Shown piece after piece: positions 56,367 through 64,000 of a stretch of DNA of 64,000 bases. Origin of the DNA: Sphingomonas jejuensis (GTDB taxonomy: Bacteria > Pseudomonadota > Alphaproteobacteria > Sphingomonadales > Sphingomonadaceae); the NCBI RefSeq assembly GCF_011927695.1, contig NZ_JAATJE010000002.1, positions 234,001-298,000 of the forward strand, given 5' to 3'. The notes under the pieces are model-generated. The model did not search any database and was not told the DNA's origin. It saw nothing but the letters and a program-made list of their open reading frames with translations. Position 1 is the stretch's first letter; each line of letters starts with the position of its first letter. The translations under genes and the position numbers were made by a program.

Positions 56367-57128
56367 ATGTCTGACAGTCCGCTGGAGGCGCGGCTGGCGC
56401 AATACCTGACCCTGACCTTTGCCGAGCGCGACGCACTCCGCTGGCTCGAACGGCGCGAGCGCGCCCTGCCGGCCGGGGAGATCCTGATCCGCGAGGGCGA
56501 GGCGACCGACCGGCTCTACATCGTCGCGCGCGGCTGGCTGCACGGATCGGTGAAGCTGAAGGACGGGGGCCGGCAGATCCTGCGCTTCTACTTCGTGGGC
56601 GACATCAGCACGACCTTCTCCATCGCCTGGGGACAGAGCGCGGCGACGCTGCAGGCGGTGAGCGACACGCAACTGTTCGAGATCGAGAAGGACGCGTTCG
56701 GCCGGCTGTTCCGCAACCACCCGCGGCTTGGGGCGCTGCTGTTCGCGGTGTCGACGTCCGAGCAGGTGGCGATGGCCGACCGCTTGACCTCCATCGGCCG
56801 CACCGACGGCGTGACTCGGATCGCCACGCTGCTGCTCGACATCCGGTCGCGGCTGCGGGTGGTCGACGGGCTCGACGGGTCGGTGTTCTCGCTGCCGCTG
56901 ACGCAGCAGGACCTGGGCGATGCGGTGGGACTGACCAAGACGCATGTGAACCGGTCGCTGAAGGCGTTGGAGGCGACCGGGCTGGTGGAGCGGCAGGGGC
57001 GCGTCATCCGCATTAACGATGTGGAGCGACTGGCCGAGATGGTCGACTTCAAGGACCGGCACGGGTCGGTGGCGACCGACTGGCTGCCCCCGCCAGTCGC
57101 ACGGAGTGACATGGATCACACAGGCTGA
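56367..57128 (+). CDS. Crp/Fnr-family transcriptional regulator
   Basis: A 253-residue regulator with a cyclic-nucleotide-like barrel (about 20-130, with PAGEILIREGEATDRLYIV), a dimer helix and a C-terminal helix-turn-helix (LTQQDLGDAVGLTKTHVNRSLKAL cut to its core: QQDLGDAVGLTKTHVNRSL). Fnr-type cysteines are missing. It lies 131 bases upstream of the inositol-phosphate-synthase cluster in the same direction and may control it, but no binding site can be shown. Confidence 0.87.
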   Translation: MSDSPLEARLAQYLTLTFAERDALRWLERRERALPAGEILIREGEATDRLYIVARGWLHGSVKLKDGGRQILRFYFVGDISTTFSIAWGQSAATLQAVSDTQLFEIEKDAFGRLFRNHPRLGALLFAVSTSEQVAMADRLTSIGRTDGVTRIATLLLDIRSRLRVVDGLDGSVFSLPLTQQDLGDAVGLTKTHVNRSLKALEATGLVERQGRVIRINDVERLAEMVDFKDRHGSVATDWLPPPVARSDMDHTG

Positions 57129-57259: not shown

Positions 57260-58441
57260 ATGGCCGAACGTCTGGGCATCGCCATTGTGGGCGTGGGCGG
57301 GGCCGTTGCCACCACCGCGATCGCCGGCATCGAAATGATCAAGGCGGGGTCGAACAGCCTTGCCGGGCTGCCGCTTGCGGACCGCGACGTCGCCGGGCTG
57401 GTCGCCTATCGCGACCTGGAATTCGGCGGCTGGGACCTGGCCGACGACACGCTCGGCAATTGCGCGCTGAAGCATGGCGTGATCGGCGAGAAGGAGCTCG
57501 CCAATGGCGCCAGCGCGCTTAACGGCATGCGGCCGTGGAAGGCAGCGGGATCCACCGGCTATTGCGCCAACATCGACGGCGACAACAAGCTGTCGGGCGG
57601 TCACCGGGCGGCGGTCGCGCAGATCCAGGCCGATCTCGCGCGGTTCCGCGAGGAAAAGCAGCTCGACCGCGTGGTGGTGGTGAACCTGGCCTCGACCGAG
57701 CGGGTGCCGCACCCCGACGACGCGGCGCTGCAATCGCGCGAGGCGTTCGAGCGCGGGCTCGACAGCGACGACGGCGCGATCAGCCCGGCGATGCTCTATG
57801 CCTATGCGGCGATCGATGCGGATACGCCCTATGCCAATTTCACCCCTTCGGTGGCAGCGGACGTCGCGCCCCTCGCCGCCTTCGCGGCCGAGCGGAACGT
57901 GCCGGTGGCCGGCAAGGACGGCAAGACGGGCCAGACCTTCATGAAGACGGTGATCGCGCCCGCGCTGCGCGATCGCGCGCTGCATGTGGATGGCTGGTTT
58001 TCCACCAACATCCTCGGCAATTCGGACGGGCTCGCGCTCGACGATCCGAAGTCGCTGGCGTCGAAGATCGGGACCAAGGGCAGCGTGCTGGACCAGATCC
58101 TTGGCTATCCGGTCGAGGATCACATCATCATGATCCATTATTACCGCCCGCGCGGCGACGACAAGGAAGCCTGGGACAACATCGACCTGACCGGCTTCAT
58201 GGGTCAGAAGATGCAGCTGAAGCTGAACTTCCTGTGCAAGGACTCGATCCTGGCCGCGCCGCTCGCCATCGAGATCGCGCGGTGCCTGGATCTGGCGCAG
58301 CAGCGCGGCCAGGGCGGCGTGCAGGAGCAGCTCGGCCTGTTCTTCAAGCTGCCGCAGACGGCAGGCGGGCGCCAGCCGATCCACGGCGTGCCCGAGCAGC
58401 AGGCGATCCTCGACCGCTGGCTGGATCGCGTGGAGGCGTGA
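57260..58441 (+). CDS. Inositol-3-phosphate synthase family protein
   Basis: A 393-residue NAD-dependent synthase of the myo-inositol-1-phosphate synthase family, which cyclises glucose 6-phosphate. The Rossmann start IAIVGVGGAVATTAI and the blocks VVVVNLASTERVP, FSTNILGNSDGLAL and MGQKMQLKLNFLCKDSILAAPL support it. GGGGAAGGATC precedes the ATG at 57260. It opens a run of seven coupled genes and overlaps the next by GTGA, so its product probably feeds the pathway encoded there. Confidence 0.9.
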   Translation: MAERLGIAIVGVGGAVATTAIAGIEMIKAGSNSLAGLPLADRDVAGLVAYRDLEFGGWDLADDTLGNCALKHGVIGEKELANGASALNGMRPWKAAGSTGYCANIDGDNKLSGGHRAAVAQIQADLARFREEKQLDRVVVVNLASTERVPHPDDAALQSREAFERGLDSDDGAISPAMLYAYAAIDADTPYANFTPSVAADVAPLAAFAAERNVPVAGKDGKTGQTFMKTVIAPALRDRALHVDGWFSTNILGNSDGLALDDPKSLASKIGTKGSVLDQILGYPVEDHIIMIHYYRPRGDDKEAWDNIDLTGFMGQKMQLKLNFLCKDSILAAPLAIEIARCLDLAQQRGQGGVQEQLGLFFKLPQTAGGRQPIHGVPEQQAILDRWLDRVEA

Positions 58442-59388
58442 CTGGAGCGCTGGCCGATCCGATGTCGGCGGCGGTGCGCGGGCGATTGTCGCCGGCGGCG
58501 CTGCCGCTGTTCCGCGAACTCGGCGACCTGAAGCGGATCCGCTCCGCCGAAGCGGCGGGGTCGATCGCCGAGCGGCTGTTCGTGGCGGCATGGGCGGCGC
58601 TGATCCGCGGCGAGCCGGCCGAAGACGTGATGGCGCGCGTGACCGGTGCCGCGCTGGTGTCGGCCCGGCTGGGCGACATCGACCTGGTCGTGCTCGACCG
58701 GCTTGGGATCGGAACCCGGGCCGAGAGCATCTTGGAGCGTGCCTTCGACGAGCTGGCAGACGAGGGGGTGATCGAGGACGATGCGCTCCGCACGCATATT
58801 CGCGGCGCGTTGCCGCAGGGCCGGCCGCAGATGGGCCCCGTCCCGCCCTTCGTCGGCAAGCTGGCGCGGCAGCCGCGCGCGGGCGTCACCTGTCCGGGGC
58901 GGCCGCGCATCATGCTCCAGCCGCCGGAGAACCACGCCGAGCACTGCCTGATGGTCGCCGTCTACGGCGTGATCGCAAGCCCGTGGCACCGGGCCGATGC
59001 CACGAGAGTCTTCCTGGCCGGGCTGGCCCACCACCTGCACAACGCCGACATGCCCGACAGCGGCTATTCCGGCGAGATGCTGCTGGGCGAGGCGCTGAAC
59101 GATGCCATCGCAAACGCGCGTGCTGCCGCGACCGCGGAGATCGCCGAGATGGCGCCCACCCTGGTCGACCAGGTGGAAGACGCGCTGGCGCCGATCAGCG
59201 GCGACAGTACGGGCGAAGCGCGCGCGTTCCACGTCGCCGACGTGCTCGACCGCGTGCTGGAGATCGAGCAGTTCACCCGCGCAGGCCGGCTGGCCATGGA
59301 CGTGGTGCTGGGCGACTATGGCCTGGTGCATGACGGTCCGGTGAAGGCGTTCCACGACCGCATCCTGGCCGATGCGGGCCTGGCGTGA
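58438..59388 (+). CDS. HD-domain-like protein
   Basis: A 316-residue helical protein. The C-terminal half resembles an HD phosphohydrolase, with ENHAEHCLMVAVYG and GLAHHLHNADMPDSGYSGEM, but the usual His-Asp pair reads His-His, so metal binding may differ. The N-terminal 150 residues have no match I know. The GTG at 58438 overlaps the synthase stop; an ATG at 58462 is possible. The role in the pathway is open. Confidence 0.7.
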   Translation: MTGALADPMSAAVRGRLSPAALPLFRELGDLKRIRSAEAAGSIAERLFVAAWAALIRGEPAEDVMARVTGAALVSARLGDIDLVVLDRLGIGTRAESILERAFDELADEGVIEDDALRTHIRGALPQGRPQMGPVPPFVGKLARQPRAGVTCPGRPRIMLQPPENHAEHCLMVAVYGVIASPWHRADATRVFLAGLAHHLHNADMPDSGYSGEMLLGEALNDAIANARAAATAEIAEMAPTLVDQVEDALAPISGDSTGEARAFHVADVLDRVLEIEQFTRAGRLAMDVVLGDYGLVHDGPVKAFHDRILADAGLA

Positions 59389-60518
59389 GCCTGCTCGACA
59401 CGCTGCGGTCCCCGGTCACGGGCCAATTGCTGGAGCGGGACACGCCGCATTCGCTCGCCGCGCCGGGTGAACGCTGGCCGATCGTCGACGGCATCCCTTA
59501 TCTCAGGACCGAGAGCGAGGGGCTGGTGGCCGTCGCGCTCGACCATCTGGACGCCGACTGCCCCGACGACGCGCTGGTGGCGCTGCTGACCGACCAGGAT
59601 GGCTGGTGGACGGGACCCGCGACCGACCTGGGCGAGCTGAAGCGGCTGGTGCGGGAGCGGGACAGCCTGACCTTGCGCGAGGCGATGGCGCTGCTCCGGA
59701 TGGGGCCGGTCGCGGATTATTTCGCGCATCGCTGGGTCGACCCGACCTATCTGGCCGGCCTTGCCCTGATCGAGGCGCACTGGGCGGCGGCCGGGACCGC
59801 CTTCGAGCTGGCGTGCGGCATCGGCCATTACCTGCGCGAGCTGACCCGCCGAGGGACCGCCTGCCTGGGCGCGGACGTGGTGTTCTCCAAATGCTGGCTC
59901 GCCAAGCACTGGGTGGCGCCGGACGCCGATTATCTTGTGTTCGATGCCGCCGCGCCGTGGCCGATCGCCGGGCAGCGCTTCGACCTCACCATGTGCCAGG
60001 ACGCCTTCTACTTCCTGCCGGAGCAGCAGGAGATCGCACGGCGGCTGCGCGCGGTGACGGAGGCCGACGGGACGCTGCTGGTCGGCCACCTCCACAATTC
60101 CGAGTACTGGAACGGCAGCAAGGGCCCGGCGCGGCCCTGGTCCGACTGGGCGGCGATCTTCCCCGACGCAGCCGTCTATGACGAGGGGGCGCTGCTGCAC
60201 GCCCTGTTGGTCGCCGGGCGCGCGGAGCCCCAGGGGTGGTACGAGGATCGCAAGGTCGAGGCCTGGTCGCTGGCGGAGCCGGCTCGTCCGGCGCGGCCGG
60301 TGGATGGCGGGATCGCGCTGCCGCCGCCCGGCGCGGTGCTTCGCCCCAATCCGCTGGTCGGCGCCGAGGCCGGGCACGAGCATGTGCAATGGCCGTCGCC
60401 GCGCTGGCGCGACGAATATGGGCCGGGCTGCTTCTGGGCGAACCGCGACGACGAGCTGGGCTTCGTGCCCGACCCCGTTCGGTTGCGCCGCGTGGTCGAC
60501 CTGCCGGAGCGGTGGTGA
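59385..60518 (+). CDS. SAM-dependent methyltransferase-like protein
   Basis: A 377-residue protein. Residues 1-45 look like a Trm112-type segment without its cysteines (SPVTGQLLERD, WPIVDGIPYL). The methyltransferase core includes FELACGIGHYLRELTRRG (SAM motif I), DLTMCQDAFYFLPEQQEIARRL and DGTLLVGHLHN. The C-terminal 100 residues are specific to this type. The GTG start overlaps the previous stop. Confidence 0.78.
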   Translation: MSLLDTLRSPVTGQLLERDTPHSLAAPGERWPIVDGIPYLRTESEGLVAVALDHLDADCPDDALVALLTDQDGWWTGPATDLGELKRLVRERDSLTLREAMALLRMGPVADYFAHRWVDPTYLAGLALIEAHWAAAGTAFELACGIGHYLRELTRRGTACLGADVVFSKCWLAKHWVAPDADYLVFDAAAPWPIAGQRFDLTMCQDAFYFLPEQQEIARRLRAVTEADGTLLVGHLHNSEYWNGSKGPARPWSDWAAIFPDAAVYDEGALLHALLVAGRAEPQGWYEDRKVEAWSLAEPARPARPVDGGIALPPPGAVLRPNPLVGAEAGHEHVQWPSPRWRDEYGPGCFWANRDDELGFVPDPVRLRRVVDLPERW

Positions 60519-61516
60519 TGCGCTGGGGGATCGCCGGCTATGGCTGGGTCGCACGCGACCACATGGCGCCCGGGATCGGGGCGGCCGGCGGCCGCGTGAC
60601 GGCGATCGCCGATCCCTCCCCCGCCGCGCGTGCCCGCGCCGAGGCGCGCGGCATCGAGGCCTTCGACAGCGTGGAGGCGATGGCGTCGGCCGGCGCCTGC
60701 GACCTTGTCTATGTCGCGACGCCGAACGACGCCCATGCCGGTCCCGTGCTTGCAGCGGTGGGTGCTGGCCTGCCCGTGCTGTGCGAGAAGCCGGTGGCGG
60801 CCTCCCTCGCCGAGGCGGAGTTGATGGCGGCCGGCGTCGAGGCAGCCGGCGTGCTCTACGGCACGGCGTTCGACCAGCGTCACCATCCCGCGCACCGCGC
60901 GATGGCGGAGGCGATCGGCAGCGGCGCCATCGGTCGTCCGATCGGCGTCAGAATCGTCTACGCCTGCTGGGTCGACCCGCTGTGGACGCCGGACGGCGAC
61001 GCGCATGACAACTGGCGCGCCGATCCCGCGCGGGCGGGCGGCGGCGCGGTGATCGACCTGGCGCTTCACGGGCTGGACCTCGCCCAGCGGGTGCTGGGCG
61101 AGCCAGTGGACGCGCTCTCCATCGTCCTGCAGCAGCGGATCCACGATTATGCCGTTGACGATGGCGGCATGCTGATGGGGCGGACGGCGTCGGGCGTGCT
61201 GTTCCAGAGCCATGTCGCCTATAACTGTGCCGAGGTGCTGCCGCGACGCCGGCTGGAGGTGCTGGGCGAGCACGGCATGATCGTCGCCACCGACACCATG
61301 GGTCAGACGGCGGGCGGCACGCTCGTGCGGCGATGCGGGCGGAGCGGCGAGGAACAACCTATTGCCTTTGATGCCGACACCAGCCCCTTTGCCGCGCAGG
61401 CAGCCGCCTTCATGGCGGCGGCGCGGGGCGACGCCCATGATTTTTCGGTGCATCGCGACCTGTCGCTGATGCGCGTCTTCGACCGAGCCTATCGAGAGGC
61501 GATTGCATGCCGTTGA
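60518..61516 (+). CDS. Gfo/Idh/MocA-family oxidoreductase
   Basis: A 332-residue NAD(P)-dependent dehydrogenase. The nucleotide fold begins MRWGIAGYGWVARDH, the EKP signature is LCEKPVAASLAEAE, and GGGAVIDLALHGLDLA follows. Relatives oxidise inositol or sugars, which suits a cluster with an inositol-phosphate synthase. The ATG is coupled by TGATG to the methyltransferase gene. Confidence 0.9.
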   Translation: MRWGIAGYGWVARDHMAPGIGAAGGRVTAIADPSPAARARAEARGIEAFDSVEAMASAGACDLVYVATPNDAHAGPVLAAVGAGLPVLCEKPVAASLAEAELMAAGVEAAGVLYGTAFDQRHHPAHRAMAEAIGSGAIGRPIGVRIVYACWVDPLWTPDGDAHDNWRADPARAGGGAVIDLALHGLDLAQRVLGEPVDALSIVLQQRIHDYAVDDGGMLMGRTASGVLFQSHVAYNCAEVLPRRRLEVLGEHGMIVATDTMGQTAGGTLVRRCGRSGEEQPIAFDADTSPFAAQAAAFMAAARGDAHDFSVHRDLSLMRVFDRAYREAIACR

Positions 61517-62322
61517 GCCATTTCGCCTGCGCCAACTGCGGCTTCTGGCAGCATCATTTCGCCCCGCCGGATTGCCCGGTGTGCAGCGATGTGCGCAACG
61601 ATCTGCCGCCCGACGGCTGGCACTTCCTGCCAGAAGCTGAGGTCACCGCGACGCACCAGGGCGATGCGCGGGAGGTCGCGCCCGGGCTGTGGGCCTTCAC
61701 GACCCGCCCGGCGCTGGGGCTGGCCGGTACGGGCTGGCTGATCGTGCGCGACAGCGGCAACATCGCGTTCGAGGCGGCACCCTATTACAGCGCCGCGATG
61801 ATCGCGCAGATCGATGCGCTCGGCGGGATCGCGATCCTGTCGGCGAGCCATGCCCATGGTTATGGCGCGCTGTTCCAGCTCCAGCGGCACTTCGACCCGG
61901 CGGTGGTCGCGATCCACCGCGACGACCTGAAGATGACCAAGGCGTTCCGCGTCACGGCCCCGTTCGACGACATGCTGGAGTTGGCCCCCGGATACACGCT
62001 GCACCATGTCGGCGGCCATTATGAAGGGCAGGCGTGCCTCCACGATGCACTCGGAGGCCGGCTGTTCTGCGGCGACATGTTCAAGATCGACCAGCACCCC
62101 GACGGGCGGTCGCATGCGATCTCCAGCCACAAGGCATTCCACAAGGATATTCCGCTGACCCACGCCGAGCTTCGCCGCTACCGCGACGTGATCGCCCCGC
62201 TGTCCTTTGACGCGGTGCTGACCCCCTTCGAATATGCGCCGGACATCGGCCGCGACACGGCACTGGCCGCGCTGGAGGACGGATTGTCGCGCGCGCCGGG
62301 TGTCAGGAGGATGCCGCTGTGA
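61507..62322 (+). CDS. Zinc-ribbon metallo-beta-lactamase-like protein
   Basis: A 271-residue protein with a rubredoxin-like zinc ribbon at its N-terminus (C8/C11 and C23/C26) and a metallo-beta-lactamase-type fold. The usual HxHxDH motif reads SHAHGYGAL, keeping HxH but losing the Asp-His pair; GGHYEGQ and FCGDMF correspond to later strands. It may hold one metal or none. It overlaps the dehydrogenase gene by 10 bases. Confidence 0.78.
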   Translation: MPLSHFACANCGFWQHHFAPPDCPVCSDVRNDLPPDGWHFLPEAEVTATHQGDAREVAPGLWAFTTRPALGLAGTGWLIVRDSGNIAFEAAPYYSAAMIAQIDALGGIAILSASHAHGYGALFQLQRHFDPAVVAIHRDDLKMTKAFRVTAPFDDMLELAPGYTLHHVGGHYEGQACLHDALGGRLFCGDMFKIDQHPDGRSHAISSHKAFHKDIPLTHAELRRYRDVIAPLSFDAVLTPFEYAPDIGRDTALAALEDGLSRAPGVRRMPL

Positions 62323-63809
62323 GGTCCGGCCTGCCGACCGATCTGGGTGCCGCCGCGCGCGCCTACCTCGATGCCTTTCCGAAGGGCGACGTGGTGGCGT
62401 TTCCGATCCACCCGCTCGATCGGCTGGGCCTGCCGGTCTGGGTCGTCGCCCTGTTCCCGGAGGACGAGGCGCTGTCCGGCATCATGCCTTATGGCGTGGG
62501 GTACGGCGCGACTGACGAGGCCGCGGTGCTCGGCGGGCTCGGCGAGATCGCTGAGATGGTGTGGCCGACACTGACGCTGGGCAGCCGTGCAAAGACGCGC
62601 GGCAGCTTCACGACGCTTGTCGCCACGCTTGGCGAGCGATCGGTGGCCGATCCGCTGACGCTCTGCCTGCCGGCCGGATCCCCCGTCGACCGGGACACGG
62701 TGCTGGAATGGGTGGAGGCGAAGCGCTGGACCGACGGATCGACCGTGCTGGTGCCGATCGACCTGGCCGCCTACTCCGCCAAGGAGCTGTCGCCCGGGTA
62801 CCGCCCGTTCACGACGATCATCTCGAACGGCATGGGGGCCGGGCCGGACCTCGACTGGGCGATCGGGCATGGCTTGTGCGAGATCCTGCAGCGCGACGGC
62901 AATGGCCTGTTGTTCCGCGCGCTCGACCGCGGCGTGTCGCTGACGCTGAACGCGGACGTGCCTGCGTCCAGCCGGGCGATCCTCGACCGGTTCGATGCCG
63001 CCGGCATCCGCGCCATGCCGAAGTTCGCGACCGACCAATATGGCATGCCGAACCTTTACTGCGTGGGCATCGACACACGCGACGCGCCGGCCGCGCCCAT
63101 CATGGTCACGGCCTGCGGCGAGGCGTGCAACGCCGACCGCGAGGCTGCCCTCAACAAGTGCCTGACCGAGTTCGCGGCGAGCCGCGCGCGCAAGGCGTTC
63201 GCGCATGGTCCGGCCGACCTTGTCGCGCAGGTTGCACCCGACGGCTATGTCGCGCGCTTCATGGCGCAGGCGGGCGGAGCTGCGAAATCCAGCGACGGAC
63301 GCGCCTTTGCGGCCATGCAGGACTGGACGCGGCGCGATGCGGGCGAGCTGCGCGACTGGCTGGCCGGCAGCGTCCTTTCCGAACGGTCGCGCCACGATTT
63401 CAGCGCGCTGCCGTCGCGACCGGTGGCCGACGGCCATGCCCGCGCTCAGGCCGCGCGCGCCGCGGTGGAAGCGGCCGGATTCGACATCCTCTATGTCGAC
63501 ATGTCGCCGCCGGACCGCGCCGTCACCGTCGCCAAGGTGATCGTGCCGGGGATGGAGGTGGAGACGATGAGCTACTACCGGATCGGCACGCGCAACACGG
63601 AAAAGCTGCTGGCGCTCGGCTCGCCGCTGATCCGGTTCGGCGAGGAGACCGACACGCTGCGCCGCATCCGCCTGCCGGAGCTGGATGCCGAGCGGCTTGG
63701 CCACCCGCTGTTCGACACGGAGGCCGCCGACCGGCTGGTGGGGCCGCTCTATCCTCTCTACCGCGAGCCCGAGGCGCATCATGTGGCTTGGGCGGAGGCG
63801 CAGGGATGA
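62319..63809 (+). CDS. YcaO-like family protein
   Basis: A 496-residue YcaO-domain protein. YcaO enzymes use ATP to activate amide oxygens, making azolines, thioamides or amidines, mostly in peptides. Visible pieces are AVLGGLGEIAEM, ISNGMGAGPDLDWAIGHGLCEILQRD and LNKCLTEFAASRARKAF. The usual ER of the ATP-binding motif E-x-x-E-R is QR here. No TfuA, E1-like partner or precursor peptide is near. The GTG start overlaps the previous stop (GTGA). Confidence 0.82.
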   Translation: MRSGLPTDLGAAARAYLDAFPKGDVVAFPIHPLDRLGLPVWVVALFPEDEALSGIMPYGVGYGATDEAAVLGGLGEIAEMVWPTLTLGSRAKTRGSFTTLVATLGERSVADPLTLCLPAGSPVDRDTVLEWVEAKRWTDGSTVLVPIDLAAYSAKELSPGYRPFTTIISNGMGAGPDLDWAIGHGLCEILQRDGNGLLFRALDRGVSLTLNADVPASSRAILDRFDAAGIRAMPKFATDQYGMPNLYCVGIDTRDAPAAPIMVTACGEACNADREAALNKCLTEFAASRARKAFAHGPADLVAQVAPDGYVARFMAQAGGAAKSSDGRAFAAMQDWTRRDAGELRDWLAGSVLSERSRHDFSALPSRPVADGHARAQAARAAVEAAGFDILYVDMSPPDRAVTVAKVIVPGMEVETMSYYRIGTRNTEKLLALGSPLIRFGEETDTLRRIRLPELDAERLGHPLFDTEAADRLVGPLYPLYREPEAHHVAWAEAQG

Positions 63810-64000
63810 GCCTTCGGTTTGCCTACAACACCAACGGCGCGGCCAATCACCGGCTCGACGATGCGCTGCGGCTGATCGCCGATGCCGGCTATGACGGTGT
63901 GGCGCTGACGCTCGACCACCATCACCTCGATCCGTTTGCGCCCGACTGGCAGCGGGAAGCGGAGCGGGTCGGGCGGCTGCTGAACACGCTGTGGCTGGGC
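63806..64000 (+). CDS. Sugar phosphate isomerase/epimerase, N-terminal part
   Basis: The first 65 residues of a TIM-barrel protein of the AP-endonuclease-2 (xylose isomerase-like) superfamily: LRFAYNTNGAANHRLDDAL, then IADAGYDGVALTLDHHHLDPF. Such proteins isomerise or epimerise keto sugars and inosose. The start overlaps the YcaO stop. The gene runs past the window end. Confidence 0.85.
   Translation, partial: MSLRFAYNTNGAANHRLDDALRLIADAGYDGVALTLDHHHLDPFAPDWQREAERVGRLLNTLWLG

Follow-up and report, generated by a model that had tools for sequence, protein, structure and literature searches.

A nine-gene operon with an unusual YcaO in Sphingomonas jejuensis, probably for a non-peptide metabolite of inositol and amino-sugar origin

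What might a YcaO enzyme do among genes for the handling of inositol and sugars? The question is raised by the end of a 64,000-nucleotide stretch of Sphingomonas jejuensis DNA (hereafter the window; contig NZ_JAATJE010000002.1, positions 234,001 to 298,000), where the initial annotation had described seven overlapping genes, from an inositol-phosphate synthase to a TIM-barrel isomerase. Gene number, order, strand, and overlaps are as it claimed, with the coordinates confirming each, and the extension past position 64000 that it had asked for yielded two more genes of the operon, encoding a GT4 glycosyltransferase and a PIG-L deacetylase. The operon is confirmed as real and larger than first described: nine overlapping genes lie on the plus strand of a 2.96-Mb genome at 57260-66530, with genes 8 and 9 and most of gene 7 past the window's end. 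Its families suggest a biosynthetic operon that quite probably makes a non-peptide, and probably intracellular, metabolite joining an inositol-derived ring to an amino sugar. The genes, in window numbering, are as follows.

57260..58441, plus strand: gene 1, Ino1, inositol-3-phosphate synthase (PF01658/PF07994)
58438..59388, plus strand: gene 2, HD-domain protein and probable phosphohydrolase (PF13023; GTGA overlap with Ino1)
59385..60518, plus strand: gene 3, S-adenosylmethionine methyltransferase (PF08241; GTGA overlap with the HD gene)
60518..61516, plus strand: gene 4, Gfo/Idh/MocA dehydrogenase (PF01408, PF22725; TGATG overlap with the methyltransferase gene)
61507..62322, plus strand: gene 5, zinc ribbon and metallo-beta-lactamase (MBL) fold (10-base overlap with the Gfo/Idh gene)
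62319..63809, plus strand: gene 6, YcaO of an unusual subfamily (PF02624, 3e-48; GTGA overlap with the MBL gene)
63806..64636, cut by the window at 64000, plus strand: gene 7, xylose-isomerase-like TIM barrel of IolE/IolO/tagatose-epimerase type (PF01261, 1e-37; ATGA overlap)
64633-65844, plus strand: gene 8, GT4 glycosyltransferase (PF00534; four-base overlap with the TIM-barrel gene)
65841-66530, plus strand: gene 9, PIG-L deacetylase (PF02585; four-base overlap with the GT4 gene)

A scan of one-genome-per-species contigs with YcaO peptides fetched 50 loci, a sample that leans to near relatives, from Sphingomonas, Erythrobacteraceae-type genera, Methylobacterium, and Streptomyces. The order and strand of the cluster genes present were kept in all 50, and all nine genes were matched in 38, two of which (L045 and L053) match some genes partially; the other 12 comprise ten Methylobacterium loci without a linked MBL gene and two loci (L011 and L018) cut by contig ends. 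Such conservation argues that the arrangement is not due to chance. Conservation alignments left out L011, L018, L045, and L053 and held 47 rows including the window (37 for the MBL protein); many positions were invariant across host lineages. Profiles used 34 of the 47 rows for the HD protein (A1), 28 of the 37 for the MBL protein (A2), and 23 of the 47 for YcaO (A3). Broken copies also occur: YcaO lies in two overlapping pieces at about 9294-10764 of L082 (genome G271), the Gfo/Idh and MBL genes are partial at 9290-10001 of L053, and several genes are partial in L045.

The cluster also reaches well beyond these hosts. A plasmid search found all nine genes on a plasmid of Roseomonas haemaphysalidis and eight on one of Hymenobacter volaticus (Bacteroidota, from air), where Gfo/Idh is split in two and the GT4 frame spans only 318 amino acids; matches to all nine also occur in five further actinobacterial genomes, 3.1-4.4 Mb in size and perhaps Rubrobacter-like (L098, L099, L100, L102, and L103). 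Gene order is largely kept across three phyla. Within the set of nine, the pairwise distances of one protein correlate with those of another at 0.70-0.89 (up to 22 representatives, without species-tree control). DNA matches to the window's Ino1 gene were seen on another Hymenobacter volaticus plasmid (NZ_CP095062.1, 17875-18256) and on a Gemmatirosa plasmid (NZ_CP007130.1, 81872-82243).

Most groups carry YcaO of this type only here and there, while one genus has it almost throughout. With the window protein, an order-wide draw gave matches in 15 of 296 genomes at E 1e-3, eight of them strong, the host's own included; profile A3 matched four of 59 relatives at 1e-3 (three strong, own included), and a class-wide draw gave three of 385 at 1e-20 (own included). 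In the phylum of Streptomyces, 11 of 396 genomes matched at 1e-20, and in the genus Methylobacterium 108 of 111 did so. The HD protein was found in seven of these 396 actinobacterial genomes, and each of the seven also has YcaO; the other four of the 11 YcaO carriers comprise three that are differently arranged (G948, G980, and G1071) and one with a weak match (G1052, 6e-23). Within Methylobacterium, HD is absent from all three genomes without YcaO and present in all four tested with it.

Family scans (Pfam at E 0.1 and NCBIfam at E 0.01, with the best 25 of 36 NCBIfam matches for GT4) indicate what the nine products may be. Pfam supports six of the seven family assignments first made; the MBL protein falls below the Pfam cut-off, though its model matches MBL structures. 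Among the matches listed, no NCBIfam model cut-off is reached by any of the nine proteins, and therefore no function can be read from a model name. Ino1 matches Inos-1-P_synth at 1e-32, has inositol-phosphate synthase 7nwr as its closest solved structure (269 bits), and lacks mycothiol_INO1 equivalog status in NCBIfam (37.9 bits versus a cut-off of 638). The methyltransferase belongs to Methyltransf_11 (PF08241, 3e-8). For the Gfo/Idh protein (GFO_IDH_MocA, 9e-23), the best NCBIfam model is inositol 2-dehydrogenase (91 bits versus 355) and the closest solved relative is 1,5-anhydro-D-fructose reductase (141 bits); its stretches EKP and GGGA..DLA.HGLDL are kept in the 47 rows. The TIM-barrel protein matches AP_endonuc_2 (PF01261) at 1e-37, and in NCBIfam scores 42 bits with 5-keto-L-gluconate epimerase (cut-off 300) and 30 with myo-inosose dehydratase (cut-off 290). 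By sequence, the closest solved relatives of GT4 are Tll1590, MshA, and BshA, the likeness extending over residues 141-374 for MshA and 9-375 for BshA; in NCBIfam it scores 77.7 bits with MshA (equivalog cut-off 462.5) and 72.6 with BshA (cut-off 273.7). The PIG-L protein is closest among solved structures to glycopeptide deacetylases such as Dbv21 and scores 22.2 bits with BshB2 (cut-off 195). Pfam found no transporter, resistance, kinase, or aminotransferase family in the nine proteins.

The HD and MBL proteins were also modelled. HD matches HD_3 (PF13023) at 5e-5, with 23.6 bits versus a cut-off of 22.5, and its AlphaFold model has a predicted local distance difference test score (pLDDT) of 89. 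Foldseek gave no match at E 0.001 (top HDDC2, E 0.1); VIA-align returned 1xx7 (Z 12.2), HDDC2 (Z 11.6), the 5'-deoxynucleotidase YfbR (2pau; Z 11.0, root-mean-square deviation 2.5 over 132), and OxsA of oxetanocin biosynthesis (5tk7; Z 10.3, deviation 3.9 over 146). The modelled fold resembles small HD proteins and small-molecule phosphatases, a likeness that, with these Z values belonging to a mostly helical protein, is supportive and not proof. Many conserved histidines prompted a comparison with diiron oxygenases of MIOX or PhnZ type: PhnZ and TmpB were listed weakly by Foldseek (E above 3), VIA-align was topped by phosphohydrolases and unnamed HD proteins, and the candidate was set aside, although the protein may still be an oxygenase. 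The MBL protein scores 20.8 bits with Pfam MBL (cut-off 22.7), and its N terminus is rubredoxin-like, also below threshold. Four cysteines, H115, H117, H171, and D190 are invariant in 28 rows. The usual MBL motif is HxHxDH; here the metal site is altered, reading SHxHGYG in the alignment. Its model has a pLDDT of 74, low at residues 1-35, 37-39, 116-119, and 136-152 (the zinc ribbon plus a pair of loops close to the active site), and Foldseek places it in the MBL superfamily in general and nothing narrower.

YcaO itself belongs to a coherent subfamily. Its domain spans residues 61-413 (PF02624, 3.1e-48), its score with the SagD-type NCBIfam model is 91.9 bits versus a cut-off of 219, and its closest solved relative by sequence in the Protein Data Bank (PDB) is MJ1094. 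The glutamate of the ERD motif is glutamine (Q191) in 65 of 65 proteins, a count that leaves out L045 and L053 and includes one broken copy (L082) as well as numerous relatives of nearly the same sequence. The resulting signature, [LIVM]QRDGN, offers a handle for locating the pathway elsewhere; ERD is kept in L062, a generic YcaO of the same order. The canonical nucleotide-site pattern fails here: E..QR is found in all 65 and glutamine at the third-motif position in none (54 have alanine), whereas MJ1094, LynD, and MusD have E..ER and MJ1094 also has the third-motif glutamine. The changed residue aligns with LynD E551, which we take to be a metal ligand.

From the families, and beside the observed gene content, order, conservation, and co-occurrence, we infer every reaction of the proposed route. 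Ino1 would convert glucose 6-phosphate to an inositol phosphate, from which the HD protein would take off the phosphate; the Gfo/Idh protein would oxidise a hydroxyl of the ring or sugar, the TIM-barrel enzyme would epimerise or dehydrate the resulting ketone, and the methyltransferase would add a methyl group. GT4 would attach an N-acetyl-hexosamine, whose amine PIG-L would then free. YcaO enzymes phosphorylate an amide oxygen, after which a nucleophile attacks; here, YcaO with ATP would activate a carbonyl oxygen of a small molecule (amide, vinylogous acid, or vinylogous amide) for attack by an amine, hydroxyl, or sulfur. A non-peptide substrate for YcaO is the best inference from the gene set. 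That the pathway is cyclitol- or sugar-based, as had been proposed from the seven genes, is supported by the families and strengthened on the sugar side by GT4 and PIG-L.

Could a peptide substrate have been missed? In the window's operon, neighbouring genes overlap at all eight junctions, and there is therefore no room between them for a precursor. Outside them, 913 open reading frames (ORFs) of 20-150 amino acids in the 2.5-kb flanks of 19 clusters were compared by BLAST at E 1e-4; this search covers flanks, and would miss a precursor that lies far away, varies strongly, or sits in an inter-gene gap of another cluster. None of the 913 is shared by three or more lineages, its own included, and ten match one other lineage, in keeping with the absence of a precursor first reported. 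The initial annotation had held that a precursor of a ribosomally synthesised and post-translationally modified peptide (RiPP) just outside the window would overturn its reading; none conserved was found in those flanks. Within the nine proteins, Pfam found no E1-like/ThiF, TfuA, or RiPP recognition element (RRE) family. Of the marks of a RiPP locus, a YcaO-family enzyme is present, and no adjoining precursor and no partner protein or RRE was found by these searches; RiPP membership is therefore unlikely.

What the product might be is harder to say. The nine include no transporter or resistance family, and YcaO is near-universal in Methylobacterium; both points favour an intracellular protectant over an antibiotic, and a stress or light protectant would be our guess at the class. 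The YcaO reaction, in which an amide oxygen is phosphorylated for attack by a nucleophile, is reminiscent of the amine additions that ATP drives in mycosporine synthesis, and for this reason an ultraviolet A (UVA) absorber can be named, if only tentatively: an inositol-derived, amino-sugar-bearing compound made by a new route to a mycosporine/gadusol-type chromophore, in which YcaO would phosphorylate a vinylogous acid or amide oxygen in the stead of ATP-grasp enzymes, and which is perhaps the methylobamine of Methylobacterium. A passage of a 2025 review citing Yoshida 2017 describes UVA-absorbing compounds in Methylobacterium (PMC12573535), an excerpt of a 2020 review likens such a compound to avobenzone (PMC7769811), and methylobamine is named, with citation of Kamo 2018, in a passage of a further paper (PMC9664959). 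The Hymenobacter copy, lacking a methyltransferase gene, counts against a UVA absorber. Downstream of the nine genes on the Roseomonas plasmid (L110, 18269-21940) come a glucosyltransferase gene annotated as MdoH and two genes annotated as members of the spore photoproduct lyase family (one scanned), near partition genes, and a uracil-DNA-glycosylase-superfamily gene borders the cluster on different sides in L079 (12671-13411) and L080 (2273-2944). The lyase pair and the glycosylase neighbours point to ultraviolet light in a suggestive way, the cases being few.

Several observations weigh against a single route served by all nine genes and against parts of its chemistry. The methyltransferase has no match in the Hymenobacter cluster (L109), and the MBL gene leads a separate life in Methylobacterium: 110 of 111 genomes of the genus match it at 1e-20 (109 strongly, and G1124 through a distant paralogue alone), 15 match it also or only through a distant paralogue, and in all four genomes checked it sits on another contig than YcaO (unlinked copies at 6575-7435 of L083 and 6300-7157 of L085). 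Moreover, G1118 and G1141 have a strong MBL match without YcaO or HD, and G1170 has YcaO and HD with no MBL match. With the MBL gene unlinked and kept without YcaO, and the methyltransferase missing from Hymenobacter, the nine genes need not share one route. The Methylobacterium survey covered YcaO, MBL, and (in seven genomes) HD rather than all nine genes. In the matches seen, the first 140 residues of GT4, its acceptor half, have no MshA alignment, the likeness starting at about residue 141, and inositol would be no more than a candidate acceptor. Likewise, with the glutamate of MJ1094, LynD, and MusD being glutamine in 65 of 65 proteins, normal YcaO ATP chemistry is not to be assumed.

A side lineage adds to these points. 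Three actinobacterial genomes carry the same YcaO subfamily followed by a polysaccharide-deacetylase-like protein, which was scanned in L101 and L106 and in both belongs to PF01522 (CE4-type).

L101, 8691-11315: YcaO-deacetylase pair of G948
L106, 7975-10539: YcaO-deacetylase pair of G1071
L107, 1-2556: YcaO-deacetylase pair of G980

In G948 and G1071, YcaO comes after a gene for a sugar-binding protein (PF01547) and two permease-like ORFs, and putative glycosidase-like ORFs, read by eye, lie near it; the G980 contig begins at YcaO. HD has no match in these three genomes. This arrangement may point to a different function, or a catabolic one, a further point against the proposed biosynthesis; at the same time, YcaO again stands beside a deacetylase, of another family, which suggests an amino-sugar conjugate as its possible substrate.

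Of the other explanations, a low-molecular-weight redox buffer analogous to mycothiol or bacillithiol, in which YcaO would replace the cysteine ligase or add sulfur to an amino-sugar inositol scaffold, is unlikely, although Ino1, an MshA/BshA-like GT4, and PIG-L form the mycothiol scaffold set at family level and both the lack of an exporter among the nine and the near-universal YcaO of one genus would suit it. Pfam and NCBIfam gave none of the nine a match to a cysteine ligase, acetyltransferase, or sulfur carrier family, the equivalog models of MshA, mycothiol Ino1, and BshB2 are matched with scores far short of their cut-offs, and the cluster is also found in Streptomyces, which make mycothiol. 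The genes for a cyclitol, glycosyltransferase, deacetylase, and methyltransferase, found in Streptomyces and on plasmids, would fit an antibiotic of kasugamycin or aminoglycoside kind with YcaO forming an amidine or oxazoline on an amino-cyclitol; this is distinctly unlikely, as no resistance, export, or aminotransferase family is among the nine and a competitive antibiotic would not be expected to have its YcaO in 108 of the 111 genomes of a genus.

A catabolic operon that degrades an imported inositol glycoside or amino-sugar conjugate draws on the pairing of Gfo/Idh with an IolE-like TIM barrel, a common catabolic pair, and on the sugar-binding, permease-like, and glycosidase-like neighbours of YcaO in G948 and G1071. 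We consider it very improbable: Ino1 and a glycosyltransferase build rather than degrade, no transporter or kinase family is among the nine, and no flanking ORF of at least 130 codons is common to all lineages compared (19 loci). Finally, YcaO might serve a RiPP with an overlooked or distant precursor, or modify a host protein as in E. coli and methanogens. YcaO enzymes are chiefly known for their work on peptides and proteins (for example, PMC5589413), and the closest solved relative is MJ1094; set against this are the absence of conserved short ORFs among the 913 in the flanks, the absence of a partner family, and the sugar genes that travel with YcaO, and such a substrate is most improbable. 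A metabolite joining an inositol-derived ring and an amino sugar is thus the reading that we prefer.

The surroundings of the operon vary. A Crp/Fnr-type regulator gene (cNMP_binding, HTH_Crp_2) lies directly 5' of Ino1 in the window:

56367..57128, plus strand: Crp/Fnr-type regulator

Of the 47 loci whose upstream DNA extends for 1.2 kb or more, 21 have such a gene in this position, and none was found there in nine Methylobacterium, six Streptomyces, and 11 Sphingomonas-type loci; the gene is a possible operon regulator in part of the sphingomonads. The gene after PIG-L lies on the opposite strand and encodes a putative TesA-like esterase (ORF read by eye). A phage origin was considered and dropped, with no PHROGs match for YcaO, HD, or MBL.

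Among the best-matching full-text papers, no title or abstract start describes the nine-gene cluster; subscription journals mostly lie outside that collection and may describe it. In that collection, no full-text paper joins YcaO, inositol, glycosyltransferase, and Sphingomonas, and none joins YcaO and Methylobacterium extorquens. If the proposed route holds, YcaO chemistry would extend from peptides and proteins to carbohydrate-derived metabolites, and the pathway would gain a first account; its YcaO gene is carried by 108 of the 111 genomes examined in a leaf-dwelling genus with genetically tractable laboratory strains. A UVA absorber, if true, would involve to our knowledge the first YcaO acting on a carbohydrate-derived small molecule.

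How, then, does the operon compare with known systems? Ebo clusters contain a TIM-barrel enzyme and serve an unknown metabolite, and the likeness to them that had been suggested extends to that enzyme; it is not borne out otherwise, as Pfam found no UbiA or dehydroquinate-synthase family in the nine proteins and no Ebo-named NCBIfam model was matched, the content of such models in the two libraries being unchecked. The YcaOs of RiPP and protein thioamidation (SagD, LynD, MJ1094) share the YcaO domain, with MJ1094 the closest in the PDB; they differ in the precursor and partner that were not found here and in the ERD glutamate of MJ1094, LynD, and MusD that is here a glutamine. In mycosporine synthesis, MysC and MysD carry out an ATP-dependent amine addition. 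Gadusol, according to an excerpt of its description, gains a vinylogous-acid chromophore from a cyclitol by postulated oxidation, enolisation, and O-methylation (PMC4426668). The operon would share with these pathways the idea alone, an oxidised, enolised, and O-methylated cyclitol followed by ATP-dependent amine addition, whereas its ring would come from Ino1, and no DHQ (dehydroquinate)-synthase-like cyclase or ATP-grasp family is among the nine by Pfam. With mycothiol and bacillithiol (MshA-MshB, BshA-BshB) it has GT4 and PIG-L in common at family level, and with mycothiol also Ino1; it differs in having YcaO, Gfo/Idh, TIM-barrel, methyltransferase, HD, and MBL genes and no cysteine ligase or acetyltransferase family. 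With no MshC/tRNA-synthetase-like family among the nine (Pfam, NCBIfam) and neither MshA nor Ino1 reaching equivalog status, a canonical mycothiol cluster is not supported. Kasugamycin-type pseudo-disaccharides are set apart by the YcaO and HD genes of the operon and its lack of a resistance or export family, and resemble its proposed product, by analogy, in uniting a cyclitol with a deacetylated amino sugar.

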